Origin: Allostella vacuolata
Lineage (GTDB): Bacteria > Pseudomonadota > Alphaproteobacteria > ATCC43930 > Allostellaceae
Reading direction: 5' to 3'
DNA length: 64,000 nucleotides
Assembly (NCBI GenBank): GCA_006739055.1
Contig: AP019702.1
Location: 4,489,388-4,553,387, forward strand
A program made the position numbers and the translations under genes. Position 1 is the first letter of the stretch, and each line of letters begins with the position of its first letter. Below, piece by piece: positions 852-32,037 of this stretch. A model generated the notes under the pieces. It did not search any database. It worked only from the letters and a program-made list of their open reading frames with translations, and had not been told where the DNA came from.

Positions 852-958
852 AATGAACCATTTCCATCCAGAACCGCGAAGTCCTGAAGAATCCTTCTAC
901 CCATAAGTCTCCCTTCTCTAAAACAGAACAATCCCAAGGGATTAGACCGGCCGTTCCG

Positions 959-987: not shown

Positions 988-998
988 ATGAAATCCCA
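964..998 (-). promoter_or_regulatory. MraZ operator: four TGGGN boxes with 10-bp period
   Basis: Read on the minus strand, TGGGA (998-994), TGGGA (988-984), TGGGC (978-974) and TGGGA (968-964) recur with exactly 5 bases between boxes. MraZ of Escherichia coli is known to bind TGGGN repeats separated by 5 nt and to repress its own operon. Here the boxes cover the interval from the -35 end through the -10 of the candidate promoter. Four boxes is one more than the three described in E. coli. Confidence 0.8.
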
Positions 999-1004
999 GT
1001 CAGG

Positions 1005-1034
1005 ACCAATCGGGGGTCGGTACCAATCGGGGGT
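1005..1034 (+). repeat. Direct repeat ACCAATCGGGGGT in the mraZ leader
   Basis: ACCAATCGGGGGT occurs at 1005-1017 and again at 1022-1034, a 17-bp period. The pair lies just downstream of the MraZ boxes, inside the expected 5' leader. It may bind a regulator or be a slippage product. I know no factor with this site. Confidence 0.6.
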
Positions 1035-1090
1035 TCGGTCTGGGCGGATCGCGGCGGGAGGGGGTTCCCGCACGATCCCGGGGGGAGGCG

Positions 1091-4747: not shown

Positions 4748-6233
4748 GCTGATGGCCCGGACGCGCCCGCCGACGCCCGCCGCCCCGCTCCCCGCCGCCG
4801 ACTGCGCCGGGCCCGAGATTCGCGGCCTGGCGCTCGATTCGCGGGCGGTCGCGCCCGGCTTCCTGTTCGCGGCCCTGCCGGGCCAGGCGACCGATGGCCG
4901 CCGCTTCATCGCCGATGCGGTCGCCCGCGGCGCCGTTGCCGTGCTGGCGCCCGAAGGCACCGAGCTGCCGCCCGGCAGCGACGGCGTGATCCTGCTGACC
5001 GACGCCAACCCGCGCCGCCTACTGGCGCTCCTGGCCGCCAGCTTCCACGGCCACCAGCCGGACCGGGTCGCCGCCGTCACCGGCACCAACGGCAAGACCT
5101 CGACCGCCGACTTCGCCCGCCAGCTGTGGCAGCAGCAGGGGCTGGCGTCGGCCAGCCTCGGCACGCTCGGCATCCGGGCGCCCGGCTTCGAGCGCAAGGG
5201 CACGCTCACCACCCCCGACCCGATCGCGCTGCATGCCGCGCTCGCCGACCTGGCCGACCGCGGGGTGGTGCGGGCGGCCCTGGAAGCGTCCAGCCACGGG
5301 CTCGACCAGTACCGGCTGGACGGCATCCGCATCGCCGCGGCCGCCTTCACCAACCTGAGCCGCGACCATCTCGACTACCATCCGGACATGGCCGCCTACC
5401 GCCGGGCCAAGTTCCGCCTGTTCGGCGAGGTCATGGCGCCGGGCGGTGCCGCCGTCCTCAACGCCGACGTGGACGAATTCGCGGCCCTGGCGGCACTGTG
5501 CCGCGACCGCGGCCACCGCGTGCTCGCCTATGGCACGCGCGGCGCCGACATCCGCCTCGTCCGCCAGGACCTGCATCCGGACGGCCAGCACCTGGCGCTC
5601 GAGGTCGGCGGGCGCGCCTGGGAGGTCGACCTGCCGCTCGCCGGCCCGTTCCAGGCGATGAACGCGCTGGCCGCACTCGGCATCGTCCTGGCCGACGGCA
5701 TCCCCGCCGATCGCGCGGTGCCGGCGCTGGCGCGGCTCGAAGGCGTGCCCGGCCGGATGGAGCGGGTGGCCCGGCTCGCCCGCGGCGCCACCGTCTATGT
5801 CGACTTCGCCCATACCCCCGACGCGCTGACCACGGTCCTGGATGCGCTGCGCCGCCACACCGCGGGCCGCCTCGTCTGCGTCTTCGGCTGCGGCGGCGAC
5901 CGCGACCCCGGCAAGCGGCCCGAGATGGGGGCGGCCGTCGGCCGCGCCGCCGACCGGGTGATCGTGACCGACGACAATCCGCGCGGCGAGGACCCGGCCC
6001 TGATCCGGGCGCCGGCCGTGGCCGCGGCCCGCCGCCATGCCGCCGACGTGACCGAGATCGGCGACCGCCGGCAGGCGATCTTCGCCGCCGTCGCCGGGCT
6101 CGCCGCCGGCGACGTGCTGGTGATCGCCGGCAAGGGGCACGAATCCGGCCAGACCGTGGGCGGCCACACCCTGCCGTTCGACGATGGCAAGGTGGCGCGC
6201 CAGGCAGTCGCCGCCGCGGAGGGCTGCCCATGA
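4734..6233 (+). CDS. murE: UDP-MurNAc-L-Ala-D-Glu:meso-diaminopimelate ligase MurE
   Basis: MurE adds meso-diaminopimelate to UDP-MurNAc-dipeptide in the cytoplasm, using ATP. The 499-aa protein has the three Mur ligase domains: an N-terminal UDP-binding domain (GLALDSRAVAPGF), the central ATPase with GTNGKT at 117-122, and the C-terminal amino-acid domain. The DNPR motif at 414-417 is the signature of diaminopimelate-specific rather than lysine-specific MurE. The ATG at 4734 lies inside the end of ftsI. The stop overlaps the murF ATG. Confidence 0.95.
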   Translation: MRLAELMARTRPPTPAAPLPAADCAGPEIRGLALDSRAVAPGFLFAALPGQATDGRRFIADAVARGAVAVLAPEGTELPPGSDGVILLTDANPRRLLALLAASFHGHQPDRVAAVTGTNGKTSTADFARQLWQQQGLASASLGTLGIRAPGFERKGTLTTPDPIALHAALADLADRGVVRAALEASSHGLDQYRLDGIRIAAAAFTNLSRDHLDYHPDMAAYRRAKFRLFGEVMAPGGAAVLNADVDEFAALAALCRDRGHRVLAYGTRGADIRLVRQDLHPDGQHLALEVGGRAWEVDLPLAGPFQAMNALAALGIVLADGIPADRAVPALARLEGVPGRMERVARLARGATVYVDFAHTPDALTTVLDALRRHTAGRLVCVFGCGGDRDPGKRPEMGAAVGRAADRVIVTDDNPRGEDPALIRAPAVAAARRHAADVTEIGDRRQAIFAAVAGLAAGDVLVIAGKGHESGQTVGGHTLPFDDGKVARQAVAAAEGCP

Positions 6234-7663
6234 CCGCCCGTCCGCTCTGGACCACGGCCGAGATCGCGGCCGCCACCGGATCGCCGCCGACCGGCGCATC
6301 CTGGACCGCCGACGGCGTCTCGATCGACAGCCGCACGGTCCGCCCGGGGGACCTGTTCGTCGCCCTGAAGGGCCCCAACTTCGACGGCCACGCCTTCGTC
6401 GGCGCCGTGCTGGCCGCGGGCGCGGCCGGCGCGCTGGTCGACCATGTGCCGGACGGCATGACCGGCAGCGACCGGCTGGTCCTGGTCGACGACACGCTGG
6501 CGGCGCTGACCCGGCTCGGCCGCGCCGGGCGCGACCGCACCCGGGCCAGGGTGGTCGCGGTCACCGGCAGCGTCGGCAAGACCGGCACCAAGGAACTGCT
6601 GCGGCTGGCGCTGGAGGCCCAGGGGCCGACCATCGCCAGCGCCGCCAGCCTCAACAACCACTGGGGCCTGCCGCTCAGCCTCGCCCGGGTGCCGCGCGAC
6701 GTGGACTGGGTGGTGCAGGAGGTGGGCATGAACCATGCGGGCGAGATCGCGGCCCTGGCGCCGATCGCCCGCCCCCATGTCGGCGTCATCACCACGGTCG
6801 GCCCGGTGCATATCGAGTTCTTCCCCTCGGTGGAGGCGATCGCCGACGCCAAGGCCGAGCTCTTCCTCGGCATGACCGCCGAGGGGGCCGCGGTGCTGAA
6901 CCGCGACAACCCGCATTTCGAGCGGCTGGCCGGCCATGCCCGCGCCCGCGGCATCCGCCGCATCCTCGATTTCGGCGCCGCGCCCGGGGTCCACGCGCAT
7001 CTCGATGCGGCCGAGCTCGGCGAGACCGGCAGCACGGTGACGGCGACCGTGGGCGGACGCCGGCTGCGCTACACGCTGGGCGCCCCCGGCCGCCACTGGG
7101 TCCTGAACAGCCTGGCCGCCCTGGCCGCGGTCGATGCGCTCGGCGCCGATGTCGAAGTGGCGGCAGCCGCGCTCGCCGGCATCTCGGCGCCGGCCGGCCG
7201 CGGCGCCCGGCGCGAGGTGGCCCTGCCCGGCGGCGGTGCCTTCACGCTGCTCGACGAGAGCTACAACGCCAACCCCGCCTCCATGCGGGCTGCCTTCGAG
7301 GTGCTGGCGGCGACCCGGCCCGCGCCCGGCGGCCGGCGGATCGCCGTGCTGGGCGACATGCGCGAGCTGGGAGAGGCCGGACCGCGGCTACATGCCGCGC
7401 TTGCCGATCCCCTGATCGCTGCCGGAATCGATATCTTGTTCTGCTGCGGCCCGCTGATGGCGCATCTTGATGCCAGCCTCCCGGCCGCGTTGCGTGGCGC
7501 CCATGTCGCGACGTCCGACGATCTGGCACCGGTCGTCGCCAGCGCGGTGCGCTCGGGCGACGTCGTCACGGTCAAGGGATCGCTCGGAACGCGGATGGCA
7601 CCGATCGTCAAGCGCCTGCAGGCCGGCCCGTGGGGCGGGTCGCCGCAGGCCGCGGCAAGCTGA
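6230..7663 (+). CDS. murF: UDP-MurNAc-tripeptide:D-Ala-D-Ala ligase MurF
   Basis: MurF adds D-alanyl-D-alanine to make the complete UDP-MurNAc-pentapeptide. The product is 477 aa. It opens with LWTTAEIAAATG and the DSRTVRPGDLFVAL N-domain motif. The ATP-binding loop reads TGSVGKTGTKE, a usual alphaproteobacterial version of the family P-loop. SLNNHWGLPLSL and the C-terminal LDESYNANPASM are also family hallmarks. The start overlaps the murE stop in ATGA. A gap of 15 bases separates it from mraY. Confidence 0.95.
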   Translation: MTARPLWTTAEIAAATGSPPTGASWTADGVSIDSRTVRPGDLFVALKGPNFDGHAFVGAVLAAGAAGALVDHVPDGMTGSDRLVLVDDTLAALTRLGRAGRDRTRARVVAVTGSVGKTGTKELLRLALEAQGPTIASAASLNNHWGLPLSLARVPRDVDWVVQEVGMNHAGEIAALAPIARPHVGVITTVGPVHIEFFPSVEAIADAKAELFLGMTAEGAAVLNRDNPHFERLAGHARARGIRRILDFGAAPGVHAHLDAAELGETGSTVTATVGGRRLRYTLGAPGRHWVLNSLAALAAVDALGADVEVAAAALAGISAPAGRGARREVALPGGGAFTLLDESYNANPASMRAAFEVLAATRPAPGGRRIAVLGDMRELGEAGPRLHAALADPLIAAGIDILFCCGPLMAHLDASLPAALRGAHVATSDDLAPVVASAVRSGDVVTVKGSLGTRMAPIVKRLQAGPWGGSPQAAAS

Positions 7664-7678
7664 GAGGCATCCCGGGCC

Positions 7679-8767
7679 GTGCTCTACAACCTGCTCTTTC
7701 CGCTGGCGGACGAATTCACGCCGCTGAACCTCTTCCGCTACCTGACCTTCCGCAGCGGCGGGGCGGTGGTGACGGCGCTGCTCGTCAGCTTCCTGCTCGG
7801 CCCTTCGCTGATCCGCTGGCTGAAGTCGCGCCAGCCGCACGGCCAGCCGATCCGCGCCGACGGGCCGGAAAGCCACCTGCTGACCAAGAAGGGCACGCCC
7901 ACCATGGGCGGCTCGCTGATCCTGATCGCGCTGGCCAGTTCCACCCTGCTGTGGGCGGACCTGTCGAACGGCTATGTCTGGGTGGTCCTGTTCGTGACGC
8001 TGGGCTTCGGCCTGGTCGGCTTCGGCGACGACTACCTGAAGCTGACGCGGCGCAACCATCGCGGCCTGCCCGGCCGGCTCAAGCTGCTGGCCCAGTTCGG
8101 CATCAGCCTGGTCGGCACCTTCTGGATCCTGCAGCTGACCCGCGACCCGCTGTCGACGCAGCTGGCCGTGCCCTTCTTCAAGAACCTGATCATCGACCTC
8201 GGCTGGATGTTCCTGCCGTTCGGGGTGCTGGTGATGACCGGCGCGTCCAACGCGGTCAACCTGACCGACGGGCTGGACGGGCTGGCGATCGTGCCGGTGA
8301 TGATCGCGGCCGGCTGCTTCGCCCTCATCACCTACCTGGTCGGCAACGCGATCTTCGCCAACTACCTGCAGATCCAGCATGTCCCAGGGTCGGGCGAGCT
8401 GACCGTGTTCTGCGGCGCGCTGGTCGGGGCCAGCCTCGGCTTCCTGTGGTTCAACGCCCCGCCCGCCATGGTCTTCATGGGCGACACCGGCTCGCTGTCG
8501 GTCGGCGGCGCGCTCGGCGCCATGAGCGTGATCACCAAGCACGAGATCGTGCTGATCATGATCGGCGGGCTGTTCGTGCTGGAGACGGTGTCGGTCATCG
8601 TCCAGGTCGTGTCGTTCCGGCTGACCGGCAAGCGGGTGTTCCGCATGGCGCCGCTCCACCACCATTTCGAGAAGAAGGGCTGGGCCGAGCCGACCATCGT
8701 CATCCGCTTCTGGATCATCGCCTCCATCCTGGCGCTCGCCGGGCTGTCGACCCTGAAGCTGCGGTGA
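7679..8767 (+). CDS. mraY: Phospho-MurNAc-pentapeptide transferase MraY
   Basis: MraY is the polytopic membrane enzyme that moves phospho-MurNAc-pentapeptide onto undecaprenyl phosphate to form lipid I. The 362-aa product has about ten hydrophobic segments and the family motifs [41 protein letters not shown] and [11 protein letters not shown]. The first two aspartate-rich motifs and the HHH loop form the active site in the family. The start is GTG at 7679; [11 protein letters not shown] is a standard N-terminus. It lies 15 bases after murF and 4 bases before murD. Confidence 0.95.
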
Positions 8768-8771
8768 CGGG

Positions 8772-10160
8772 ATGATCGTCGTCCGCGAATTCGCCGGCCG
8801 CCGCGTCCTGGTGCTGGGCCTTGCCCGCAGCGGGCTGGCGGCGGCGCGCGCGCTGGCCGCGGGCGGCGCGGAGGTGGTGGTGTGGGACGACCGGCCGGCC
8901 AACCGCGAGGCGGCGGCCAAGGCCGGCCTCGCCGTGGCCGACCCCGCGCACGAGGACTGGTCGCAGCTGGCGGCCCTGGTGATGAGCCCGGGCATACCCC
9001 TGACCCATCCGGCACCGCACCCGGCAGTGCTGGCCGCACGCGCGACCGGCGTGCCGGTGACGGGCGACATCGCGCTGCTGCGCCGGGCCCAGCCGGACGC
9101 CCGCATCTGCGCCATCACCGGCACCAACGGCAAGTCGACGACGACGGCGCTGATCGGCCATATCCTGAAGCAGGCCGGGGTCCCGGTCGCGGTCGGCGGC
9201 AACCTGGGCATCGCGGCCCTCGACCTGGCGCCGCTCGGCGCAGGCGGGGTCTATGTGCTGGAGCTGTCGTCCTTCCAGCTCGACCTGGTCGAGGACAGCC
9301 GGTTCGAGGTCGCGATCCTCCTCAACGTGGCGCCCGACCATCTCGACCGCCACGGCACGATGGCCGGCTACATCGCGGCCAAGCTGCGCATCTTCGCCGG
9401 CCAGCGGCCGGGCGACACCGCGATCGTCGGCATCGACGACGCGGTCGCCGCCGCCATCGCCGAGCAGCCGCGCCAGGCGGCACTCGTCCGCATCTCCGGC
9501 GGCGATCGCGCGGCCGATGTCCGGGTCGTGGGCGGCATGCTGACCGACGCCCAGGGCCCGGTCGCGGACCTGGACCTGGCCCCCACCCTGCCCGGCGGCC
9601 ACAACGCCCAGAACGCGGCCGCCGCCTTTGCCGCCTGCCGGGCGCTCGGGGTCGGACGCGATGCGATCGCGGCCGCCCTGCCCCGCTATCCGGGCCTGCC
9701 CCACCGGCAGGAGCTGGTCGCGGTCATCGACGGCGTCGCCTACGTCAACGACAGCAAGGCGACCAATGCCGACGCCGCCGCCTGCGCGCTCGGCTGCTAC
9801 GACGCGGTCTACTGGATCGCGGGCGGCGTCCCCAAGGAGGGCGGCATCGCCAGCCTCGCCCCGTATTTCCCGCGCGTCGCCCACGCCTTCCTGATCGGCG
9901 AGGCGGCGCCGGAATTCGCCCGCACGCTGGCCGGCCGGGTGCCGCACACGATGGCGGGCGACCTGCCCCAGGCGCTGCGCCTGGCCCAGGAGCGGGCGGC
10001 GGCCGAGCGCCGGTCGGGCGCCACCGTGCTGCTGTCGCCGGCCTGCGCCTCGTTCGACCAGTTCCGCGACTTCGAGGACCGCGGCGACCGGTTCCGCGCC
10101 CTCGTCACGTCCCTGCCGGGGCGGCGGGTGATCCTCGATCCGGCGGAGTCCGCGGCATGA
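8772..10160 (+). CDS. murD: UDP-MurNAc-L-alanine:D-glutamate ligase MurD
   Basis: MurD adds D-glutamate to UDP-MurNAc-L-alanine. The 462-aa protein starts with a Rossmann-like UDP-binding domain (VLVLGLARSGLAAARAL) and has the ATP loop GTNGKSTTTALIGHIL. Further family motifs are LELSSFQLD, LNVAPDHLDRHG and YVNDSKATNADA. The DKSAD-type C-terminal region is replaced by SPACASFDQFRDFEDRGDRF, which is normal for MurD. The stop overlaps the ftsW start (ATGA). Confidence 0.95.
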   Translation: MIVVREFAGRRVLVLGLARSGLAAARALAAGGAEVVVWDDRPANREAAAKAGLAVADPAHEDWSQLAALVMSPGIPLTHPAPHPAVLAARATGVPVTGDIALLRRAQPDARICAITGTNGKSTTTALIGHILKQAGVPVAVGGNLGIAALDLAPLGAGGVYVLELSSFQLDLVEDSRFEVAILLNVAPDHLDRHGTMAGYIAAKLRIFAGQRPGDTAIVGIDDAVAAAIAEQPRQAALVRISGGDRAADVRVVGGMLTDAQGPVADLDLAPTLPGGHNAQNAAAAFAACRALGVGRDAIAAALPRYPGLPHRQELVAVIDGVAYVNDSKATNADAAACALGCYDAVYWIAGGVPKEGGIASLAPYFPRVAHAFLIGEAAPEFARTLAGRVPHTMAGDLPQALRLAQERAAAERRSGATVLLSPACASFDQFRDFEDRGDRFRALVTSLPGRRVILDPAESAA

Positions 10161-11278
10161 CCACCATCCCCCGCACCGATACCTCGCTCTTCGGCCAGTG
10201 GTGGTGGACGGTCGACCGCTGGACCGTGTTCGCGCTGGCGGCGATCATCGGCATCGGCGCCGTCATGCTGCTGGCCGCGAGCCCGCCGGTGGCTGAGCGG
10301 ATCGGGCTGGAGCCCCTGCACTTCGTCAAGCGGCAGATGCTGGTGCTGCCGATGGCGATCGCCGTCATCTTCTTCGTCTCGCTGCAGCCGCCGCGGGTCA
10401 TCCGCCGCCTGGCGCTCGCCGTCTTCTCGGTCTCGCTGATCATGCTGGCGATGACCTTCCTGATCGGGGCCGAGATCAAGGGCGCGCGGCGCTGGATCTC
10501 CCTGCCCGGCATGTCGATCCAGCCCTCGGAGTTCGTGAAGCCGACCTTCGCCGTGCTGACCGCCTGGCTGCTGGCCCAGGGCAAGGCCAGCTCGCGCTTC
10601 CCGGGCGGCCTCGTCGCCGTCGCCCTGTTCGCGGTCATCGTCGCCATGCTGCTGAAGCAGCCCGACCTTGGCATGGCCGTGGTGGTGGGGGCGGTGTGGT
10701 TCGTCCAGATCTTCCTGGCCGGCCTGCCGATCCTGCTGGTGGTGGTGCTGGGCGCGCTCGGCCTGACCGGGCTGTTCGGCGCCTACATCCTGCTGCCGCA
10801 CGTCACCAGCCGCATCAACCGCTTCCTCGACCCCGCCGCCGGCGACAGCTACCAGATCGACCGCTCGATCGAGGCCTTCACCAATGGCGGGCTGTTCGGC
10901 CGCGGTCCCGGCGAGGGCACGATCAAGAACTGGTTGCCGGACGCCCATGCCGACTTCGTCTTCGCGGTCGCGGGCGAGGAGCTGGGGCTGATCGCCTGCC
11001 TCTTCATCGTCCTGCTGTTCGCGGTCGTCGTCGTCCGCAGCGTCCTGCGGGTGACCAGCGAGCAGAGCCTGTTCGTCATCCTGGCCGCGGCCGGGGTCGC
11101 GACCCAGCTCGGCCTGCAGGCGATCATCAACATGGCCTCGTCCCTGCACCTGATGCCGACCAAGGGCATGACGCTGCCCTTCATCAGCTATGGCGGCTCG
11201 TCGATGCTGGCGCTGGCGCTCGGCACCGGCATGCTGCTGGCGCTGACCCGGCGGCGCTTCGGCGGCATCGAGCCATGA
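10157..11278 (+). CDS. ftsW: Septal peptidoglycan glycosyltransferase FtsW
   Basis: FtsW is the SEDS-family polymerase that builds septal glycan strands with FtsI. The 373-aa product is strongly hydrophobic, with about ten membrane segments. SEDS motifs are visible: KGARRWI, QPSEFVKP, LLKQPDLGMAVVV and the C-terminal PFISYGGSSMLALALG. The N-terminus (MTTIPRTDTSLFGQWWWTVD) precedes the first membrane segment, as in other alphaproteobacterial FtsW proteins. The start overlaps the murD stop. Its own stop overlaps a five-codon ORF that leads into murG. Confidence 0.95.
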   Translation: MTTIPRTDTSLFGQWWWTVDRWTVFALAAIIGIGAVMLLAASPPVAERIGLEPLHFVKRQMLVLPMAIAVIFFVSLQPPRVIRRLALAVFSVSLIMLAMTFLIGAEIKGARRWISLPGMSIQPSEFVKPTFAVLTAWLLAQGKASSRFPGGLVAVALFAVIVAMLLKQPDLGMAVVVGAVWFVQIFLAGLPILLVVVLGALGLTGLFGAYILLPHVTSRINRFLDPAAGDSYQIDRSIEAFTNGGLFGRGPGEGTIKNWLPDAHADFVFAVAGEELGLIACLFIVLLFAVVVVRSVLRVTSEQSLFVILAAAGVATQLGLQAIINMASSLHLMPTKGMTLPFISYGGSSMLALALGTGMLLALTRRRFGGIEP

Positions 11279-11292
11279 CCGTGCGCCCATGA
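11275..11292 (+). other. Five-codon ORF linking ftsW to murG
   Basis: ATG at 11275 overlaps the ftsW stop. The frame reads M-T-V-R-P and stops at 11290-11292, overlapping the murG ATG (11289-11291). murG itself begins M-T-V-R, so the mini-ORF duplicates its first four codons, with differences only at wobble bases (GTG/GTA, CGC/CGG). No Shine-Dalgarno sequence precedes murG. A ribosome leaving ftsW could step through this frame and restart. Whether it is translated is not known. Confidence 0.35.
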
Positions 11293-12404
11293 CCGTACGG
11301 ATCGTCCTTGCCGCCGGCGGCACCGGCGGCCACCTGTTCCCGGCCGAGGCGCTGGCGCGGATCCTGGTTGCGCGCGGCGCCGAGCCGGTGCTGGTGACCG
11401 ACCCGCGCACCAGCGGCTTCGCCACCGACCTGCCGGGCCTGGCCGTCCACCGCCTGCCGCTGCAGCCGATGCGCGGCGGCGTGGTCGGGCGCATCCGCGG
11501 CGGGCTCGGCCTGTGCGCCGGCACGCTGGCCGCACGCGGCCTGCTGCGCCGCCTGGCGCCCGACGCCATCGTCGGCTTCGGCGGCTACCCCTCGGTGCCG
11601 ACCGTCTTCGCCGGCCGCAACCTCGGCCGGCCGATCCTGCTGCACGAGCAGAACGCGGTGCTGGGCAAGGCCAACCGCATGCTGGCGGGGCGCGCGACCC
11701 GCATCGCCACCTCCTTCCCCACCCTGCGCCTGCTCGATCCGGGGCTGGCGTCCAAGGTCGTCGAGACGGGCAACCCCGTCCGGCCGGCCATCGCCGCGCT
11801 CAACAGGCAGCCCTACGCGCCGCCCGCCGCGGGCGGCCCGATCGAGATCCTGGTGATGGGCGGCAGCCAGGGCGCCGCCGTCTTCGCGACCCGCCTGCCC
11901 GAGGCGCTGGCGCGCCTGCCCGACGCGCTCCGTGTCCGCCTGCGCCTGACGCAGCAGGCGCGCGCCGACGACGTGGAGCCGGTGCGCGCCGCCTATGCCC
12001 GGATGGGCATCCCGGCCGTGGTCGAGCGCTTCTTCGCCGACGTGCCGGACCGGCTGGCCCGCGCCCATCTGGTGGTGTCGCGCTCCGGCGCCTCGACCGT
12101 GGCCGAGATCGCGGCAGCCGGCCGGCCCTCCCTGCTGGTGCCCTACCCGCACGCGGCCGACGACCACCAGACCGACAATGCCGGCCATCTGGTCCGCGCC
12201 GGGGCCGCCTGGCTGGCGCCCGAAGGCACGGTCGACGCGGCCGGCCTGGCCGCCCTGCTGGCGGGCGTGCTGGACGACCCCGCCCGGCTGGCCGCCGCCG
12301 CGGCCGCCGCGCGCGGCCTTGGCCGTCCGGACGCGGCCGACCGGCTGGCCGATGCCGTCCTGGCGCTGGTCGCCATTCCCCCCGCGATGGAGCGCGCGGC
12401 ATGA
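11289..12404 (+). CDS. murG: Lipid II synthase MurG
   Basis: MurG is the peripheral membrane GT28 glycosyltransferase that adds GlcNAc from UDP-GlcNAc to lipid I. The 371-aa protein has the N-terminal acceptor motif [24 protein letters not shown] and [14 protein letters not shown]. In the C-terminal UDP-sugar domain are GGSQGA and [11 protein letters not shown], followed by [16 protein letters not shown]. The ATG at 11289 is preferred because [14 protein letters not shown] is the normal family N-terminus. It lacks a Shine-Dalgarno sequence and follows the mini-ORF. The stop overlaps the murC start. Confidence 0.95.
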
Positions 12405-13852
12405 GGACCATCCCGCTTTCCATCGGCACGATCCATTTCGTCGGCATCGGCGGCATCGGCATGAGCGGCATCGCCGAGGTGCTGCACCAGCTGGGCTACG
12501 CCGTGCAGGGCAGCGACGTCGCCGACGGCGCCAACGTCCAGCGCCTGCGCCGGCAGGGCATCGCCGTGGCCATCGGCCACCGCGCCGAGAATCTGGGGCA
12601 GGCCCAGGTGGTCGTGGTGTCCTCGGCCATCAAGGCCGACAATCCCGAGGTGGCCGACGCCCGCGCCCGCCTGCTGCCGGTGGTCCGCCGGGCCGAGATG
12701 CTGGGCGAACTGATGCGGCTGCGCTGGTCGGTCGCCATCGCCGGCACCCACGGCAAGACCACCACCACCTCGATGGTGGCGGCGATGCTGGACGCGGCCG
12801 ACATGGAGCCGACCGTCATCAATGGCGGCATCATCAACGCCTACGGCACCAACGCGCGCATCGGCCAGGGCGAGTGGATGGTGGTGGAGGCGGACGAGTC
12901 CGACGGCACCTTCATCAAGCTGCCGGCGACGATCGCGGTCGTCACCAACATCGACCCCGAGCATCTCGACTTCTACAAGACCTTCGAGGCCGAACAGCGC
13001 GCCTTCGTCCAGTTCGTCGAGAACCTGCCCTTCTACGGCTTCGCCGTGCTGTGCATCGACCATCCGGTGGTGCAGGCGATGATCCCGCTGGTATCCGACC
13101 GCCGGGTCATCACCTACGGGCTGACGCCGCAGGCCGACGTGCGCGCGGTCAATGTCCGCATCGCGGCCGGCGGCAGCCGCTTCGACGTGGTCGTGTCGGA
13201 CCGCTTCCACGACACCCAGCGGACGATCGAGGGCATGAGCATGTCGATGCTGGGCGAGCACAACGTGCAGAACGCCCTGGCCGCGATCACCGTCGGCATC
13301 GAGATGGGCTTCGACGACGACGTCATCCGCCGCGGGCTCGCGAGCTTCGCCGGGGTGAAGCGGCGCTTCACCCGCACCGGCGAGGCCAACGGCATCACCG
13401 TGATCGACGACTACGGCCACCACCCGGTCGAGATCGCGGCCGTCCTGAAGGCCGCCCGCCAGGCCACCCGCCGCGGCGTGGTCGCGGTCGTCCAGCCGCA
13501 CCGCTACAGCCGGCTCGCCAGCCTGTTCGAGGATTTCTGCACCTGCTTCAACGACGCCGACACGGTGATCGTGGCCGACGTCTACGCGGCCGGCGAGGCG
13601 CCCATGCCCGGCATCGACCGCGACGCGCTGGTCGAGGGGCTGCGCGCCCATGGCCATCGCCATGTCGTGGCGCTCGCCGGCCCGGACGCGCTGGCCCCGC
13701 TGGTGCGCGACACGGCGCGCGCCGGCGACCTGGTGATCTGCCTCGGCGCCGGCTCGATCACCCAGTGGGCGCACGCCCTGCCGGGACAGCTCGACCGCAG
13801 CCAGATCGACCGCAGCCAGGCCGACCGCCATCCGGGAGCGGCCCACGCATGA
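12401..13852 (+). CDS. murC: UDP-MurNAc:L-alanine ligase MurC
   Basis: MurC adds the first amino acid, L-alanine, to UDP-MurNAc. The 483-aa product begins with the dinucleotide-like [18 protein letters not shown], has the ATP loop [11 protein letters not shown] and EADESDGTF, and the C-domain [11 protein letters not shown] and QPHRYSR. The last 20 or so residues carry a short hydrophilic repeat, [12 protein letters not shown], beyond the usual family end. It overlaps murG and murB by ATGA at both ends. Confidence 0.95.
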
Positions 13853-14802
13853 TCGCCGCCCGCCTTCCGCAGCGCCTGGTCGACCGGCTGCCGTCGGTGC
13901 GCGGACGGCTGTCCGAAGGTGCGGCGCTGGCGCCGGTCACCTGGTTCCGCGTCGGCGGCGCGGCGGAGGTGATGTTCCGCCCGGCCGACGCCGACGACCT
14001 GGCCGAGTTCCTGGCCGCCTGCCCGGCCGACGTGCCGGTGACGCCGATCGGCGTCGCCTCCAACCTGCTGGTGCGCGACGGCGGTATCCCGGGCGTGGTG
14101 GTGCGGCTCGGCCGCGGCTTCGCCGGGATCGCCGCCGACGGGCTGCACCTGACCGCGGGCGCGGCCGCCCTCGACGTCAACGTGGCGATCGTCGCCCGCG
14201 ACGCCGGGCTGGCCGGACTGGAATTCCTGGCCGGCGTGCCCGGCACGATCGGCGGCGGCCTGCGCATGAATGCCGGCTGCTACGGCCGCGAGATGGCCGA
14301 CGCGCTGGTCGAGCTGGAGGCGATCGACCGGCAGGGCCGGCGCCACCGCGTGCCGGCGGCCGAGGCCGGCCTCGGCTACCGCCATTGCGGACTGCCGGAC
14401 GACTGGATCTTCACCGCCGCCACCTTCGCCGGCACCCCCGACGAGCCGGACCGGATCGGCCAGCGCATGGCGCTGCTGGCCCGCCAGCGCGAGGAGACCC
14501 AGCCGATCCGGGCGCGGACCGGCGGCAGCACCTTCGCCAACCCGGCCGGCGAGAAGGCCTGGGCCCTGGTCGACCGCGCCGGCTGCCGCGGCCTGCGCCT
14601 GGGCGGCGCGGCGGTGTCGGAGAAGCACTGCAACTTCCTGATCAACCTCGGCACCGCGACCGCGGCCGACATCGAGGGGCTGGGCGAGGAGGTCCGGCGC
14701 CGGGTCGCCTCGACCAGCGGCATCGTCCTTGCCTGGGAGATCCGGCGGGTCGGCGTGGCCGGCACGCAGCGCGCGAATCCCGCTATAGAGGTTTCCCGAT
14801 GA
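13849..14802 (+). CDS. murB: UDP-N-acetylenolpyruvoylglucosamine reductase MurB
   Basis: MurB is the FAD-containing, NADPH-dependent reductase that converts enolpyruvyl-UDP-GlcNAc into UDP-MurNAc. In the 317-aa product the FAD-binding region shows [27 protein letters not shown] and [26 protein letters not shown] holds the family serine used as proton donor, and [19 protein letters not shown] is the C-terminal signature. It appears to be the short type lacking the loop of E. coli MurB. Coupled to murC and ddl by ATGA overlaps. Confidence 0.95.
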
Positions 14803-15719
14803 GCAAACGCGTCGCCGTGCTGATGGGTGGCTGGTCCGCCGAACGCGAAGTGTCGCTGGCCTCCGGCCGCGACTGCGCGGCGGCGCTGCGCGAGGCCGGG
14901 TACGAGGTCGAGACGATCGATGTCGGTCGCGACCTCTCTGCCCTCATCCGCCAGCTCACGCCGCGTCCCGACGTCGTCTTCAACGCCCTGCACGGCACTG
15001 GCGGCGAGGACGGGACGATCCAGGGCGTGCTCGACTTCATGGGCCTGCCCTACACCCATTCCGGCCTGCTCGCCTCGGCGCTGGCGATGGACAAGCCGGC
15101 CGCCAAGCGCATCTTCGCCGCCGCCGGACTGCGCTGCCCCGAGGGCCGGGTGCTGCCGCTCGACCGGCTGGGCGACGGCGAGCCCCTGCCCCGGCCCTAT
15201 GTGCTGAAGCCGACGCACGAGGGCTCCAGCGTCGGCGTGGTGATCGTCCGCGAGGGGCAGAACGCCCCGCCGCCCAGCGTCGGCGACTGGCCGTTCGGCC
15301 GCGACGTGCTGGCCGAACGGTTCATCCCCGGCCGCGAGCTGACGGTGGCGGTGATGGGCGACCGGGCCCTGGGCGCGCTGGAGATCCGGCCCCGCGGCGA
15401 GTTCTACGACTACACGGCCAAGTACGCCGAGGGCGGGTCGCTCCATGTGGCGCCGACCGACCTGCCGCCGGACATCTATGCCGAGGCGCTCGACATGGCG
15501 CTGCGCGCCCATCGCGCGCTCGGCTGCCGCGGCGTCAGCCGCGCCGACCTGCGCTACGACGATACCGGCCAGGGCCGCGGCGACCTCTACCTGCTGGAGA
15601 TCAACACCCAGCCCGGCATGACCCCGACCTCGCTGGTGCCGGAGATCGCGGCGGCGGCCGGATACTCGTTCCCGGCTCTGGTGTCGTGGATGGTGGAGGA
15701 GGCCCGATGCGGCTCCTGA
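14799..15719 (+). CDS. ddl: D-alanine:D-alanine ligase
   Basis: Ddl is an ATP-grasp enzyme that makes the D-Ala-D-Ala dipeptide used by MurF. The 306-aa protein has the N-terminal motif VLMGGWSAEREVSLASG, FNALHGTGGEDGTIQG, PYTHSGLLASALAMDK and the C-terminal LLEINTQPGMTPTSLVPEIA with metal and ATP ligands. The ATG at 14799 overlaps the murB stop. Its own 3' end overlaps ftsQ by 13 bp. Confidence 0.95.
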   Translation: MSKRVAVLMGGWSAEREVSLASGRDCAAALREAGYEVETIDVGRDLSALIRQLTPRPDVVFNALHGTGGEDGTIQGVLDFMGLPYTHSGLLASALAMDKPAAKRIFAAAGLRCPEGRVLPLDRLGDGEPLPRPYVLKPTHEGSSVGVVIVREGQNAPPPSVGDWPFGRDVLAERFIPGRELTVAVMGDRALGALEIRPRGEFYDYTAKYAEGGSLHVAPTDLPPDIYAEALDMALRAHRALGCRGVSRADLRYDDTGQGRGDLYLLEINTQPGMTPTSLVPEIAAAAGYSFPALVSWMVEEARCGS

Positions 15720-16579
15720 ATCTTCGCATCGCGCTCTTCGGCCAGCGCCGCGACAAGACCGGCCGCCGGGTCGCCCAGCGCCGGGTCTGGCCGCGCTGGG
15801 TCCGCCCGGCCGCGACCGCGACGGCGGCCCTGGGCGCGGTGCTGGTGGTGTTCGTCGGCTGGCTCGCCTGGAAGGACGGCTGGGCCGACCGGCAGGCGGC
15901 GGCCGCGCTCGACCAGTTCGTCTTCGCCACCGCCGATGCCGGCCTGGCGGTCGAGGAGATCCTGGTCGAGGGCCGGCTGCACACACCGCGCGAATCGATC
16001 CTGTCGGCGGTCGACGCCCATCGCGGCACGCCGCTGCTGTCGATCGACCCCGGCACCGTGAAGGAGCGGCTGGAGGGGCTGCCCTGGATCCGCTCGGCTG
16101 CGGTCGAGCGGCAGCTGCCGGGCACGCTCTTCATCCGCCTGGTGGAACGGCGCCCGATGGCCGTGTGGCAGCGCCGCGGCCAGCTGGTGCTGATCGACGA
16201 GCAGGGCCGCGAGCTGGGCGACGAGGGCATCGAGTATTTCCCCCGCCTGCCCTTCATCGTCGGCGAGGACGCGCACACGGTCGCGGCCGAGATGGTGGCG
16301 ATGCTGGCAGCCGAGCCCAGCCTGCGCGGCCGGGTCGTCTCGGCGGTGCGGGTCGGCGGCCGGCGCTGGAACCTGCAGCTCGACAACGGCATCGAGGTGC
16401 GCCTGCCCGAGGAGCGCGCGCCGGAGGCCTGGGCCGAAGTCGCTTCGCTCGATCGCTCGCAGAAGCTGCTGTCGCGCCAGGTGACCGTGGTCGACCTGCG
16501 CGACCCCAGCCGCATCAGCCTGCGCCGGGCTCGGGACACCGGCACCGGCCAAGTCGGCAAGAAGGACCGCGACGCATGA
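15707..16579 (+). CDS. ftsQ: Cell division protein FtsQ
   Basis: FtsQ is the bitopic scaffold of the FtsQLB complex. The 290-aa product has a basic cytoplasmic N-terminus (GQRRDKTGRRVAQRRVWPR), one membrane segment at about residues 38-58, a POTRA domain starting near VEEILVEGRLHTPRESIL, and the FtsQ domain with ERRPMAVWQ and DLRDPSRISLR. A GTG 21 bases upstream would add seven glycine-rich residues. The ATG at 15707 is preferred because GGAGGAGG lies just before it. It ends in a chain of ATGA overlaps leading to ftsA. Confidence 0.9.
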   Translation: MRLLNLRIALFGQRRDKTGRRVAQRRVWPRWVRPAATATAALGAVLVVFVGWLAWKDGWADRQAAAALDQFVFATADAGLAVEEILVEGRLHTPRESILSAVDAHRGTPLLSIDPGTVKERLEGLPWIRSAAVERQLPGTLFIRLVERRPMAVWQRRGQLVLIDEQGRELGDEGIEYFPRLPFIVGEDAHTVAAEMVAMLAAEPSLRGRVVSAVRVGGRRWNLQLDNGIEVRLPEERAPEAWAEVASLDRSQKLLSRQVTVVDLRDPSRISLRRARDTGTGQVGKKDRDA

Positions 16580-16610
16580 GGGCGGTCCCATGAAAGCCCT
16601 GGAATCATGA
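16576..16610 (+). other. Two chained mini-ORFs between ftsQ and ftsA
   Basis: ATG at 16576 overlaps the ftsQ stop and encodes M-R-A-V-P-stop (16576-16593). That stop overlaps a second ATG at 16590, which encodes M-K-A-L-E-S-stop (16590-16610). The second stop overlaps the ftsA ATG at 16607. ftsA begins M-K-A-L, so the second mini-ORF repeats its first four codons with only wobble differences (AAA/AAG, GCC/GCT, CTG/TTG). All joins are ATGA. Function as a reinitiation relay is inferred only from this arrangement. Confidence 0.35.
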
Positions 16611-17854
16611 AGGCTTTGGCCCGCCCCCGCGGCCCGATCGTCGCCGTCGACGTCGGCACGACCAAGACGTGCTGCTTCATCGCGCGCGCCGACGAGGGCC
16701 AGTTGCAGATCCTGGGCATCGGCCACCAGGCATCGCACGGCATGCGCGCGGGCACGATCCTCGACATGGAGACGGTGACCACGTCGCTGACCAACGCGGT
16801 CGATGCCGCCGAGAAGATGCTGGGCGACCGCATCCGCGACGTGTTCGTCAACGTCTCGGGCGGCCAGCCGACCTCGCGCATGGTCACGGTCGACATGGCG
16901 CTCTCGGGCCGGGAGATCGACGATGCCGACGTGCGCCGGCTGCACGAGCACGGCCGCGCGATGGTCGAGCCCGGCGACCGGCACCTGCTGCATTCCATCC
17001 CCACGACCTACGTCGTCGACGGCAACCGCGGCATCCGCGACCCGCGCGGCATGTATGGCGAGCGCCTGGGGGTGCAGGTCCACACCATCACCGCTGCGGC
17101 CAGCGCCGTCCGCAACCTGGCGCTCTGCGCGAGCCGCGCCCAGCTGGAGATCGAGGGCCTCGTCTCCTCGCCCTTCGCGGCGGGCCTCGCCTGCCTGGTC
17201 GAGGACGAGATGGACCTCGGCGTCACCATCATCGACATGGGCGGCGGCACGACCTCGATGGCGGTCTTCTTCGACGGCAAGGCGGTCTTCACCGACGTCG
17301 TGCCGATCGGCGGGGCCCACGTCACCAGCGACATCGCCCGCGGCCTGTCGACGCCGACCGTGCATGCCGAGCGCATGAAGACGCTCTACGGCAGCTGCAT
17401 CGGCTCGCCGGCCGACGAACGCGAGACGTTCATGGTGCCCCAGGTCGGCGAGGACGACGACGGCCAGGGCAGCCAGATCCCCAAGTCCTTTCTCGTCGAC
17501 ATCATCCGCCCGCGCCTGGAGGAGACGCTCGAGCTCGTCCGCGCGCGGCTGGAGGCGAGCGGCCTCGACAAGGTGGCCGGTCGCCGCGTGGTGCTGACGG
17601 GCGGGGCCAGCCAGCTCCCTGGGATCCGGGACCTGGCCGGCCAGGTGCTCGACAAACAGGTGCGACTCGGGAGGCCGATCCGCATCTCCGGGCTGGCCGA
17701 AGCGGCGGGGGGGCCCGCCTTTTCGGTCTGTGCCGGGCTGCTGCACTACGCCCTGGTGCAGCGGGCCGAGGAGCCGGCCAACGGCCGTTCCGGCCGTTCC
17801 TCGGAAAAGGGTTACTTCGGCCGCTTCAGTAGTTGGTTGAAGGAGAACTTCTGA
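16607..17854 (+). CDS. ftsA: Cell division protein FtsA
   Basis: FtsA is the actin-like ATPase that tethers FtsZ to the membrane and recruits later division proteins. The 415-aa protein has the phosphate-1 loop VAVDVGTTKTCCF near residue 14, NVSGGQPTSRMV, the phosphate-2 motif TIIDMGGGTTSMAVF, and VLTGGASQLPG. The C-terminal GYFGRFSSWLKENF is the amphipathic membrane-targeting helix. The 1C domain characteristic of FtsA lies between residues of about 80 and 160. The gap to ftsZ is 101 bp and may hold an extra promoter. Confidence 0.95.
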   Translation: MKALARPRGPIVAVDVGTTKTCCFIARADEGQLQILGIGHQASHGMRAGTILDMETVTTSLTNAVDAAEKMLGDRIRDVFVNVSGGQPTSRMVTVDMALSGREIDDADVRRLHEHGRAMVEPGDRHLLHSIPTTYVVDGNRGIRDPRGMYGERLGVQVHTITAAASAVRNLALCASRAQLEIEGLVSSPFAAGLACLVEDEMDLGVTIIDMGGGTTSMAVFFDGKAVFTDVVPIGGAHVTSDIARGLSTPTVHAERMKTLYGSCIGSPADERETFMVPQVGEDDDGQGSQIPKSFLVDIIRPRLEETLELVRARLEASGLDKVAGRRVVLTGGASQLPGIRDLAGQVLDKQVRLGRPIRISGLAEAAGGPAFSVCAGLLHYALVQRAEEPANGRSGRSSEKGYFGRFSSWLKENF

Positions 17855-17892
17855 TGCAAGTCGCTTTTCGTCCGACCACACGATCTGGGGTA

Positions 17893-17922
17893 TCGACAAT
17901 CCCGGTCTACCGCCCCTAGTCT
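17893..17922 (+). promoter_or_regulatory. ftsZ: Candidate ftsZ promoter in the ftsA-ftsZ gap
   Basis: TCGACA (17893-17898) and TAGTCT (17917-17922) are spaced by 18 bases in the 101-bp gap between ftsA and ftsZ. This is the only clear gap within the dcw cluster. Separate ftsZ promoters are known in other alphaproteobacteria such as Caulobacter. The match is modest, and no TTAA-N7-TTAA CtrA box was seen. Confidence 0.3.
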
Positions 17923-17955
17923 GAATCACGACAGCTCCGAACCCGGAGGAAGCCC

Positions 17956-19530
17956 ATGCCGATCAATCTTTCCGTCCCTTCCCACGACGACGTGATCAAG
18001 CCGCGCATCACGGTGATCGGCGTCGGCGGTGCTGGCGGTAATGCCGTGAACAACATGATCCGCGCCAATCTCGAAGGCGTGGAGTTCGTCGTCGCCAACA
18101 CCGATTCCCAGGCGATCGCCCAGTCGCTGGCGACTCGCAAGCTGCAGCTCGGCGCCAGCGTCACCCGCGGCCTGGGTGCCGGCGCCCGCCCCGACGTCGG
18201 CCGCGCCGCCGCCGAGGAGGCGCTGGACGAGCTGCTCGACCAGATCGCCGGCTCCAACATGGTGTTCATCACCGCCGGCATGGGCGGTGGCACCGGCACC
18301 GGCGCCGGCCCGGTGATCGCCCGGGCGGCCCGCGAGCAGGGCATCCTGACGATCGGCGTGGTGACCAAGCCGTTCCTGTTCGAGGGCACGCACCGCATGC
18401 GCGCCGCCGAGAAGGGCATCGAGGAGCTGCAGCGCTTCGTCGACACGCTGATCATCATCCCGAACCAGAACCTGTTCCGCATCGCCAACGAGAAGACGAC
18501 GTTCGCCGACGCCTTCAAGATGGCCGACGACGTGCTGCATTCGGGCGTGCGCGGCATCACCGACCTGATGGTCATGCCGGGCCTCATCAACCTCGACTTC
18601 GCCGACATCCGCACCGTGATGCAGGAGATGGGCAAGGCGATGATGGGCACCGGCGAGGCGACCGGCGACAAGCGCGCCATCGACGCCGCCGAGGCCGCCA
18701 TCTCCAACCCACTGCTGGACGACGTGTCGATGAAGGGGGCCAAGGGCGTCCTCATCAACATCACCGGCGGCATGGACATGACCCTGTTCGAGGTCGACGA
18801 GGCAGCGAACCGGATCCGCGACGAGGTCGATCCGGACGCCAACATCATCTTCGGCTCGACCTTCGACGAGAAGCTCTCGGGCCGCATGCGGGTGTCCGTC
18901 GTCGCCACCGGCATGGACGTGGAAGCCGCCGAGAAGCCGCGCACCGTGATCCAGCTGGTCAGCGACCGTGCCGCCCAGGCGGCCGTCCAGGCCGCCGAGC
19001 CGGCGGCGCCGGAGCCGGTGCGCAGCGCCGAGCCCGCCCGGGCCGCGACCGTCGCCGGCGGCGCCGGGCCCGCCATCTCCCTGCCGCTCGGCGGGCAGAT
19101 GTCGGCCGACGTGCCGCCGACCCCGCCCGGGCGCCACAGCGAGGTGGCTCAGGCCACCTATGTCGAGCCGGCGGCGGCCGCGACCGTCCATGCCGATTCC
19201 CTGTCGATCGGCGAGGAGGTGCCGCTGCGCACCGCGGCCGGCGGCGGCGGCTTCGGCAGCCTGATCCGGCGCGTGACCGGCCTCGACCGCCCGCGGGCGG
19301 CCGGCATGCCGGCCGAGAAGATCGAGCCGTCCTCGATGGCGCCCGCCCCCGTCACCCGGCCGATGGCGCAGCCGCCGGGGCCGCAGGCCCCGGCCGCCCA
19401 CAAGCCGGCCGCGGCCGCGGCACCCAGCCTGCGCGCCCGTCCGTCCGAGAGCGTGGAGCGCAACCAGGCCGCCGGCGCCGAAGAGGACATGCTGGACATC
19501 CCGGCCTTCCTGCGGCGCCAGGCGAACTAA
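17956..19530 (+). CDS. ftsZ: Cell division GTPase FtsZ
   Basis: FtsZ is the tubulin-like GTPase that polymerises into the division ring. Of 524 aa, residues 15-325 form the GTPase core with [13 protein letters not shown], the GGGTGTG loop at 110-116 and [11 protein letters not shown]. Residues of about 330-505 are a long, alanine/proline-rich disordered linker, as is usual in alphaproteobacteria. The conserved C-terminal peptide DIPAFLRRQ binds FtsA and other partners in the family. GGAGG precedes the ATG at 17956. A strong terminator follows 63 bp after the stop, closing the dcw operon. Confidence 0.97.
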
Positions 19531-19592
19531 TCTAAGCGCCTGAAATGAAAGGCGTTTTGGTGTAACACCGCGCAATAATCTTTGAATTGTGG

Positions 19593-19631
19593 GCTCCCCT
19601 CCATCGGCCTAGATGGAGGGGAGCTTTTTTT
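19593..19631 (+). terminator. Rho-independent terminator after ftsZ
   Basis: A perfect 12-bp stem (19593-19604 with 19613-19624) with an 8-base loop is followed by seven T residues (19625-19631). It closes the dcw operon. lpxC begins only 67 bp further on. The best AT-rich stretch that could hold an lpxC promoter (about 19540-19590) lies before this hairpin, so read-through control of lpxC is possible but unproven. Confidence 0.92.
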
Positions 19632-19697
19632 GTGCCCGTTCCCTCCAGCGAACCCGTCGCCCCTGCCCGGCAGGTTCTGTTCCAGCGGAAGGTATCC

Positions 19698-20633
19698 GTG
19701 AACGCGATCAGACCCTCGGCCTGTCCGGCGCCGCGTCGTACCATCAAGTCGGCCATCCACTGCACGGGCGTCGGCCTGCATTCGGGACGGCGGACATTGC
19801 TGCGTCTGGTTCCGGCCGAGGCCGGCACGGGCATCGTCTTCCGCCGCATCGACCTGCCGGGCGGGCCCGAGGTCCGGGCCCTGTGGGACCGCGCCATCGA
19901 ATCGCCGCTCTGCACCACCCTGGTTGAGGACGGCGTCACCGTGTCCACGACCGAGCACCTGATGGCGGCCCTGGCCGGCATGGAGATCGACGACGCCGTG
20001 GTCGAGATCGACGGGCCGGAAGTGCCGATCATGGACGGCAGCGCGGCCCCGTTCGTCTTCCTGATCGAGTGCGCGGGCGCGGTCGAACTGGCGGAGCCGC
20101 GGCGCGCGATCCGCATCCTGAAGGAAGTGCGCGTCGGCGACAGCCGCGCCTGGGCGGCCCTGCGCCCCGGCCCGGCCTCGGCCTTCTCGTTCGAGATCGA
20201 CTTCCCCCATCCGGTGATCGCCCAGCAGAGCTTCGGCGTCACGCTGCACAACGGCACCTTCAAGAACCAGTTGAGCCGCGCCCGGACCTTCGGCTTCCTG
20301 CACGAGGTCGACAAGCTGCGCTCGCTGGGCCTGGCCCGCGGCGGCTCGCTGGACAATGCGATCGTGGTCGCCGACGACGGCATCCTCAACGAGGAAGGGC
20401 TGCGCTACGCCGACGAGTTCGTCCGCCACAAGATCGTCGACAGCATCGGCGACCTGTACCTGGCCGGCGGGCCGATCCTCGGCCGGTTCGAGGGTTTCCG
20501 GTCGAGCCACGCCCTGTCGGCCCGCCTGCTGCGGGCGGTGATGACCGACCCGTCGGCCTGGAGCGTCGACGACATGGTGGAGCCGATGATGACGCCGGCC
20601 TGGGAGACGGGCCCGCTGGCCGCCACCGCCTGA
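19698..20633 (+). CDS. lpxC: UDP-3-O-acyl-N-acetylglucosamine deacetylase LpxC
   Basis: LpxC is the zinc deacetylase that commits UDP-3-O-acyl-GlcNAc to lipid A synthesis. The 311-aa product shows RRTIKSAIHCTGVGLHSG at its start, TTEHLMAALAGMEIDDAVVEIDG with the first zinc histidine, EIDFPHPVI, RTFGFLHEVDKL, and HKIVDSIGDLYL with further zinc and catalytic residues. The frame is open further upstream into the ftsZ terminator. GTG at 19698 is chosen because GGAAGG sits 5 bases before it and it gives the normal N-terminus. Confidence 0.93.
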   Translation: MNAIRPSACPAPRRTIKSAIHCTGVGLHSGRRTLLRLVPAEAGTGIVFRRIDLPGGPEVRALWDRAIESPLCTTLVEDGVTVSTTEHLMAALAGMEIDDAVVEIDGPEVPIMDGSAAPFVFLIECAGAVELAEPRRAIRILKEVRVGDSRAWAALRPGPASAFSFEIDFPHPVIAQQSFGVTLHNGTFKNQLSRARTFGFLHEVDKLRSLGLARGGSLDNAIVVADDGILNEEGLRYADEFVRHKIVDSIGDLYLAGGPILGRFEGFRSSHALSARLLRAVMTDPSAWSVDDMVEPMMTPAWETGPLAATA

Positions 20634-31433: not shown

Positions 31434-32037
31434 GGACGGCTCCAATCGATTCGGCAAGAGTGGCAACGATGATCCCGGCCGCCCGGCACTGCGCCTCGGC
31501 AGCCAGTGCGCCGGCTTCCGGCGGCAGCGGCGGCAAGTGCACGAAGCCGGCCGGGATCGCGGCCCCGGTCCGCGCCAGGCGATGGCGCACCGCATAGAAG
31601 ACGTGGTTGCACAGGAAGGCGCCGGCATGGTTCGAGAAGCGGACCGGCAGGCCGGCCGCTTCCAGGGCCCGGCCGATCGGCTCCAGCGGCAGGGTGGAGC
31701 GGTAGGCGTCGGGGCCGTCCGGGTCGATCGCGCTGCCGCGGCGATGCATGCCGGCATTGTCCGCGGTCGCGCTGTCGTCGACGTTGACGGCGAAGCGCTC
31801 GAGGTTGATGGCGTCGCGGCCGCGCGCCAGCCCGAAGGCCACCACCGCCGACGGGCGCACCCCATCGACCGCGGCCAGCAGGTCGCGGCCGGCATCGGCC
31901 CAGACCACGTCGATCAGCCGGGTCTCGACCGCGACGCCGGGCACGCCGGCCCTGGCCAGGTGCTCGACGACGATCGCCGAAGGGTTGTCGGCCAGGCCGG
32001 CGAAGGGCGTGAACCCGGTGACGAGGATCGGCCTCAT
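31408..32037 (-). CDS. pcp: Pyroglutamyl-peptidase I (pyrrolidone-carboxylate peptidase)
   Basis: This cytosolic cysteine peptidase removes N-terminal pyroglutamate. The 209-aa length and the catalytic triad fit the family: Glu80 in LARGRDAINLERFAVN, Cys143 in SNHAGAFLCNHVFY and His167 in AGFVHLPPLP. The N-terminal ILVTGFTPFAGLADNPS is typical. The ATG at 32037 overlaps the uvrD stop (ATGA), and the 3' end runs into prmA. Confidence 0.93.
   Translation of the reverse strand: MRPILVTGFTPFAGLADNPSAIVVEHLARAGVPGVAVETRLIDVVWADAGRDLLAAVDGVRPSAVVAFGLARGRDAINLERFAVNVDDSATADNAGMHRRGSAIDPDGPDAYRSTLPLEPIGRALEAAGLPVRFSNHAGAFLCNHVFYAVRHRLARTGAAIPAGFVHLPPLPPEAGALAAEAQCRAAGIIVATLAESIGAVRAADRLAG

Follow-up and report, generated by a model that had tools for sequence, protein, structure and literature searches.

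Termination-reinitiation at ATGA, the four bases shared by an upstream stop and a downstream start, is an established route of translational coupling between neighbouring genes (PMC6728339, PMC10666635). The available part of one study of this process reports that adding 14 nt between E. coli gene pairs cut reinitiation by 40-80% and that adding 38 nt nearly abolished it, that H. volcanii lost reinitiation altogether at 22-23 nt, and that the two E. coli pairs examined needed no more than the final 15 nt of the upstream gene (Huber and others, PMC10666635). MIRUs, mobile repeats of many mycobacteria, bring in an ORF that lies on a start codon and couples to the gene through a -4 spacing, and expression is thought to be little disturbed (Supply 1997, as quoted in the accessible part of PMC12548453). 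The synthetic leaders of bicistronic designs and nfORF boosters carry an internal ribosome-binding site in a short ORF that feeds the next start (PMC13255528, PMC12548453). Tiny ORFs that alter translation of the next gene in cis are also described, among them the iraD upstream ORF (PMC5574718) and the pssL, baxL and axe-txe minigenes (PMC8708949).

We analysed the ftsQ-ftsA junction of the star-shaped bacterium Stella vacuolata (a genus now renamed Allostella; PMC12488387) within a stretch of 64,000 nt, hereafter the window. The initial annotation of this DNA had described ftsQ, two mini-ORFs and ftsA as linked by three successive ATGA overlaps, and the sequence agrees at every base (Table 1). 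It had also described the second mini-ORF as a copy of the ftsA start MKAL, and the differences between the two are indeed synonymous only (AAA/AAG, GCC/GCT, CTG/TTG). Both mini-ORFs fit within 31 nt of a tight gene series, and without such a relay the two genes would be separated by a gap of 27 nt. Because each of the three 4-nt overlaps shifts the frame by one, ftsQ and ftsA lie in the same frame. An upstream alternative start for ftsA was excluded: no ATG, GTG or TTG lies in frame between the in-frame stop at 16577 and the ATG at 16607, which is therefore the earliest possible start.

Table 1. Features discussed in the text, numbered from the first base of the window
Feature	Position	Strand	Remarks
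Mini-ORF between mraY and murD, GTG ACG GGA TGA	8764..8775	+	closed
Mini-ORF MTVRP* between ftsW and murG	11275..11292	+	copies murG start MTVR
ftsQ	15707..16579	+	last codons include Shine-Dalgarno-like AAGGA; stop TGA 16577-16579
AAGGA, SD-like, inside ftsQ	16562..16566	+	9 nt before ATG 16576; anti-SD duplex -6.3 kcal/mol
ATGA joint 1, ftsQ stop/mini-ORF 1 start	16576-16579	+	
Mini-ORF 1, ATG AGG GCG GTC CCA TGA = MRAVP*	16576..16593	+	5 sense codons, 18 nt
GAGGG, SD-like, inside mini-ORF 1	16578..16582	+	7 nt before ATG 16590; -6.7 kcal/mol
ATGA joint 2, mini-ORF 1 stop/mini-ORF 2 start	16590-16593	+	
Mini-ORF 2, ATG AAA GCC CTG GAA TCA TGA = MKALES*	16590..16610	+	6 sense codons, 21 nt
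ATGA joint 3, mini-ORF 2 stop/ftsA start	16607-16610	+	
ftsA	16607..17854	+	own SD weak
Plain ATGA overlap	32034..32037	-	plain in S. vacuolata, ATCC 35155 and SJ646

The junction shares features with each of the described systems and departs from each. The -4 nt overlap of classical coupling, with ATGA common to stop and start, is present at all three joints; the coupling literature, as far as its available text goes, concerns ordinary gene pairs, whereas here ORFs of 5 and 6 codons stand in series across the 27-nt gap (PMC6728339, PMC10666635). Like MIRUs, the mini-ORFs sit at a start codon with -4 spacing, but the Stella units are only 14-17 nt long, are locus-specific and in several cases resemble the start of the adjoining gene (PMC12548453); they differ between loci rather than forming one dispersed repeat family. 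Delivery of ribosomes to the next start by a short ORF that contains a binding site is also what we propose here, although bicistronic and nfORF leaders are synthetic and the Stella units are natural, repeated and arranged in an operon-like series (PMC13255528, PMC12548453). The Stella units would resemble the iraD ORF and the minigenes in acting in cis, yet the available parts of those reports describe no start-copying chain between serial genes (PMC5574718, PMC8708949), and the two-codon ORF of axe-txe differs from the 5 and 6 sense codons seen here. Each part has a precedent, in ATGA coupling, in short leader ORFs, minigenes and bicistronic designs, and most of all in MIRUs. What appears new is their combination, serial micro-duplications at operon joints that copy a start and close the frame; we found no description of these in titles and abstract openings that included few subscription papers. 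A search for ftsA and ftsQ together with translational coupling, again with few subscription papers covered, returned nothing.

We compared the junction among S. vacuolata (G000), Stella sp. ATCC 35155 (G001), S. humosa (G002) and the MAG SJ646 (G003). All four genomes share the FtsQ C-terminus KKDRDA, and the added bases follow the stop. SJ646 joins ftsQ and ftsA by a plain single ATGA. One 14-nt closed unit precedes the ftsA ATGA in ATCC 35155 (GTGAGGACCTCGCC, with a GTG start) and in S. humosa (ATGAAGTCGCCGGC); compared by eye, the latter and the adjoining ftsA start, ATGAAGTCCCTGGC, have 12 of 14 bases in common. S. vacuolata carries a 14-nt and a 17-nt unit, of which MRAVP* matches the position of the unit in S. 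humosa and ATCC 35155, while the 17-nt unit (MKALES*) occurs at this junction in S. vacuolata only.

Similar variation was found at further junctions. At ftsW/murG, a 14-nt unit is present in S. vacuolata and S. humosa, and a plain GTGA in ATCC 35155 and SJ646. The junction at 32034-32037 holds a 17-nt closed mini-ORF (MTRALA*) in S. humosa, alone among the four genomes, and at another junction SJ646 carries a 17-nt unit that copies the start, the remaining genomes read there showing differences of other kinds. With the plain overlap taken as ancestral, the gains at Stella junctions are 14, 17, 14 and 17 nt, all of them 2 mod 3.

Candidate ribosome-binding sites were evaluated against 500 random sites of the window, whose anti-SD duplex energies had 5%, 25% and 50% quantiles of -6.7, -4.6 and -2.4 kcal/mol. 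The GAGGG inside mini-ORF 1 falls at the 5% quantile and the AAGGA inside ftsQ between the 5% and 25% quantiles; the sequence at the latter site, AAGAAGGA, is conserved across the four Stella genomes. The SD of ftsA itself, inside mini-ORF 2, gives -4.1 kcal/mol, weaker than the 25% quantile and stronger than the 50% quantile. Judged as a bicistronic design, with the SD within the leader, mini-ORF 1 offers a site of -6.7 kcal/mol to the ATG at 16590, and mini-ORF 2 offers ftsA only -4.1. In the predicted RNA fold of 16531-16680 the start codons are mostly unpaired (0.89, 0.75 and 0.68), and no feature bearing on the relay was seen in it.

The reading that we favour, with a rough probability of 0.6, is that micro-duplications of a start region persist when they close on themselves and preserve termination-reinitiation; translation of the mini-ORFs, the coupling and the duplication events are all inferred from the sequence. 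Under this model, the mini-ORFs would be small tandem duplications of the ftsQ-ftsA start region, first of 14 nt and then of 17 nt. Because the copied start begins with ATGA, a duplication of 2 mod 3 closes on itself, and a ribosome restarting at the first ATG would reach a stop that overlaps the next ATG. A phase-0 duplication, by comparison, would start ribosomes in the wrong frame across the ftsA start. Duplication would thus account for the start-copying, and closure for which duplications persist.

The same model would assign roles to the three binding sites. The site inside ftsQ may now serve mini-ORF 1, the GAGGG, presumably created at the duplication joint, may serve mini-ORF 2, and ftsA, with its own weak site, would be fed by termination-reinitiation over the three 4-nt overlaps. 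A bare 27-nt gap would be expected to lose most of the coupling, since reinitiation drops with distance in the available data (PMC10666635), which could be restored by the two mini-ORFs, 18 and 21 nt long and joined by 4-nt overlaps. Unit sizes of 14-20 nt also fit, because an upstream minimum of 15 nt has been reported in the accessible part of the same study (PMC10666635).

Elsewhere in the cluster, the ftsW/murG junction is of similar design, as had been claimed, with a single mini-ORF, MTVRP*, copying the murG start MTVR; start-copying is real in both the ftsA and the murG units. The companion statement that the remaining junctions of the cluster use a single overlap proved incomplete: mraY/murD carries a closed mini-ORF, and several junctions, murF/mraY, ftsI/murE and ddl/ftsQ among them, are not ATGA junctions at all.

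A separate observation concerns the mraZ-rsmH junction, where about 83 bases (window 1497-1579) are identical in G000, G001 and G002, synonymous sites included, and nearly the same in SJ646. The junction folds as two strong hairpins (-62 kcal/mol over 110 bases), the second of which encloses a GTG (position 1561) overlapping the stop codon of mraZ. Upstream of mraZ, at 361-802, lies an RNase P RNA (RF00010, 268.5 bits), the sole Rfam match at gathering thresholds within window positions 1-20000.

We then surveyed junction phase in 2.62 Mb of S. vacuolata plus the window (2.684 Mb, 46% of the genome), comprising 2,410 genes and 1,717 same-strand junctions with starts from a simple gene caller. 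Phase was defined as the distance, modulo 3, from the first base of the stop to a downstream NTGA start 3-40 nt away. Phases 0/1/2 were 5/22/12 after [AG]TGA stops, two of the five phase-0 cases being closed double chains, and 15/15/10 after TAA/TAG stops; by this comparison, such chains are more frequent than chance. The 15 junctions with ATGA stops comprise nine single closed units, two double chains and four whose phase is in frame, with an intervening stop in one of these four. Every ATGA-stop junction outside the in-frame phase is therefore a closed chain (11/11), and no unclosed phase-0 junction after an ATGA stop was found in the sample. Closed ATGA units measure 14 nt (six), 17 nt (six) or 20 nt (one). 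After GTGA stops, 12 of 13 phase-1 junctions close at the start; of the three in phase 0, two would let a restart run out of frame for 905 and 638 nt beyond the start, and in the third a restart would stop 7 nt before the downstream start.

Sequence likeness between closed units and the starts that follow them was modest. After ATGA stops, similarity was 4.1 of 10 against 3.3 in shuffled controls (n=9, p 0.055), and after GTGA stops 3.5 against 2.75 (n=12, p 0.036); with copy similarity so weak on average, not every unit is a recognisable copy. A further result runs against the proposed mechanism. CTGA stops followed by NTGA starts also favour phase 1 (10/39/15), a bias that arises without an overlapping ATG, GTG or TTG and is absent when CTGA is followed by other starts (61/67/65). 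This bias lies outside termination-reinitiation and counts against it as the explanation of phase.

The main competing account holds that the units are neutral debris: slippage copies beside a self-initiating ftsA, with untranslated mini-ORFs and a closed phase that reflects chance or some other cause. The CTGA bias, seen where no restart is expected, speaks for it, as does the free variation in unit number within the genus. We nevertheless consider it unlikely, if still a serious contender. Debris would not predict that the Stella length changes relative to the plain overlap are all 2 mod 3, that all ATGA-to-NTGA junctions outside the in-frame phase close in the S. vacuolata sample, or that the SD of ftsA is weaker than that of either mini-ORF.

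Junctions outside Stella bear on the same choice. In 78 non-Stella alphaproteobacterial loci with 903 junctions, phases 0/1/2 were 1/28/5 after [AG]TGA, 12/13/9 after TAA/TAG and 3/2/3 after CTGA, so that the CTGA bias of Stella was not found in these loci. Among the [AG]TGA phase-1 cases, 26/28 close exactly at the start, and the lone phase-0 case is a closed two-step chain. Most of these phase-1 cases stem from one junction, mraY-murD, which was read in 48 loci: there, phases were 1/20/2 after [AG]TGA and 9/6/4 after TAA/TAG, giving the closing phase in 20/23 loci with the former stops and in 6/19 with the latter (Fisher p 0.0004 for phase 1 versus the rest, kinship ignored). The other six loci have two CTGA stops, one non-NTGA start and three longer gaps. 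Since related species are not independent, the phase p values are too small. With mraY-murD left out, the ratio of phase 1 to phase 0 is 8:0 after [AG]TGA and 7:3 after TAA/TAG.

Close relatives show both states of the mraY-murD junction. Among Parvibaculum-titled loci, a GTGA stop goes with a distance of 7 in L069, L073, L084 and L095, and GTAA or ATAG with a distance of 6 in L072, L076 and L083. The dependence of mraY-murD phase on stop codon type speaks against neutral debris.

We also counted chains in 142 genomes of the class, anywhere in the sequence rather than at junctions and with lengths picked after Stella. Chains of 14+14 occur in 44/142 genomes and of 13+13 in 33/142; for 17+17 and 16+16 the figures are 31/142 and 26/142, with 43 and 42 matches. 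That chains with 13- and 16-nt steps exist at all, and that the raw 17+17 and 16+16 counts are so alike, speaks for neutral debris. Once matches are merged, 14+14 chains occupy 62 places counted by hand (61 with one overlapping pair joined) against 34 for 13+13, and those both copy-like and stop-free number 30 (29 with the overlapping pair joined) against 10. For 17+17 against 16+16, merged places are 37 and 33, open places 32 and 18, and copy-like open places 16 and 6 (binomial p 0.05). Collectively, these counts support the closure reading weakly, because they were taken regardless of gene context and for lengths suggested by the Stella units themselves.

Two alphaproteobacterial genomes stood out in this count. 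G127 (2.7 Mb) has four 14+14 ATGA chains at four places, and G076 (2.8 Mb) has nine 14+14 matches at five places, partly as arrays. These are possibly other lineages rich in such units.

Within Stella, the double-chain pattern ATGA-N(9-14)-ATGA-N(9-14)-ATGA was searched in the four genomes, with sequence matches not limited to junctions. It yielded 65 matches: both steps are 2 mod 3 in 12 (10 loci when an S. humosa array is merged), both 0 mod 3 in 34, the phase that coding sequence should favour, and mixed in 19, and none of the 65 has both steps 1 mod 3. The S. humosa array (G002:C1:5154123-5154194), assembled from three overlapping matches, reads as a diverged 17-nt unit and, after it, three more that are identical. 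S. vacuolata has a second 14+17 chain, at G000:C1:176764-176798, before a LysR-type regulator gene.

Besides those at ftsA and murG, the S. vacuolata sample holds nine closed ATGA chains. By Pfam, the genes that follow encode the LysR-type regulator, a respiratory nitrate reductase alpha chain, a PLDc_N protein, a methyltransferase, an oligopeptide-type ABC ATPase, a sigma-54 response regulator, an AMP-binding enzyme, a 4'-phosphopantetheinyl transferase and a cyclic-nucleotide-binding protein (the last from its first 195 residues only); none of the nine is a division gene by this assignment.

The ftsQ-ftsA chain itself appears confined to Stella among the loci surveyed. The initial annotation had suggested looking for start-copying mini-ORFs before ftsA across alphaproteobacteria; of 80 ftsA loci, 8 lacked an upstream gene that could be read and in 1 the neighbour faced the other way, which left 71 read, 2 of them Stella, and an ATGA-to-ATGA mini-ORF precedes ftsA in 0/69 readable non-Stella loci. 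The survey took the nearest same-strand upstream gene, not always a confirmed ftsQ (in L101 this gene is 827 nt away).

These results also bear on the proposal that the relay tunes FtsA. Its reinitiation part remains the best reading, on sequence evidence only, and its FtsA-specific part finds no support. A dedicated regulator of the FtsA:FtsZ ratio, in which each relay step leaks ribosomes and unit number sets FtsA dosage, could draw on the differing number of units between species and on the SD-like sites before both mini-ORFs. We judge it very unlikely: SJ646 has no unit at all, the surveyed non-Stella loci lack the mini-ORF before ftsA, and in S. vacuolata such chains also stand before nine genes from unrelated families. 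The mini-ORF units look less like a device dedicated to ftsA than like something that overlapping genes generally give rise to. Least credible of all is a relic of frame, in which the upstream gene once ended at the next ATGA and 3' indels shifted its stop, leaving open a -1 frame with the look of a mini-ORF; it could explain the CTGA bias, since those stops share no bases with an ATG, GTG or TTG, but it is disfavoured at ftsQ-ftsA, where the FtsQ C-terminus is unchanged among the four genomes and the added bases lie beyond the stop, and TAA/TAG stops are unbiased.

Extending the self-closing duplication model beyond this locus, the 14-, 17- and 20-nt stop-start-SD modules could form an expandable class of tandem units at operon joints, of which the S. 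humosa array would be an example; copies would come and go with closure kept, and operons would have a cheap relay that can evolve. We see this as possible but lean against it. The general rule belonging to that extension, that a start codon overlapping an upstream stop must be the next start, lie in frame or be closed, is equally tentative.

Little was found in the literature on how overlaps tolerate insertions, though ATGA coupling is common. If the model is true, Stella joints show insertions that leave coupling intact by self-closure. The mraY-murD phase, held mainly when an [AG]TGA codon exists, suggests that such restart codons are really used. If borne out, this pattern would allow reinitiation in living cells to be tested from sequence alone, and the Stella units would be a natural counterpart to bicistronic expression designs.
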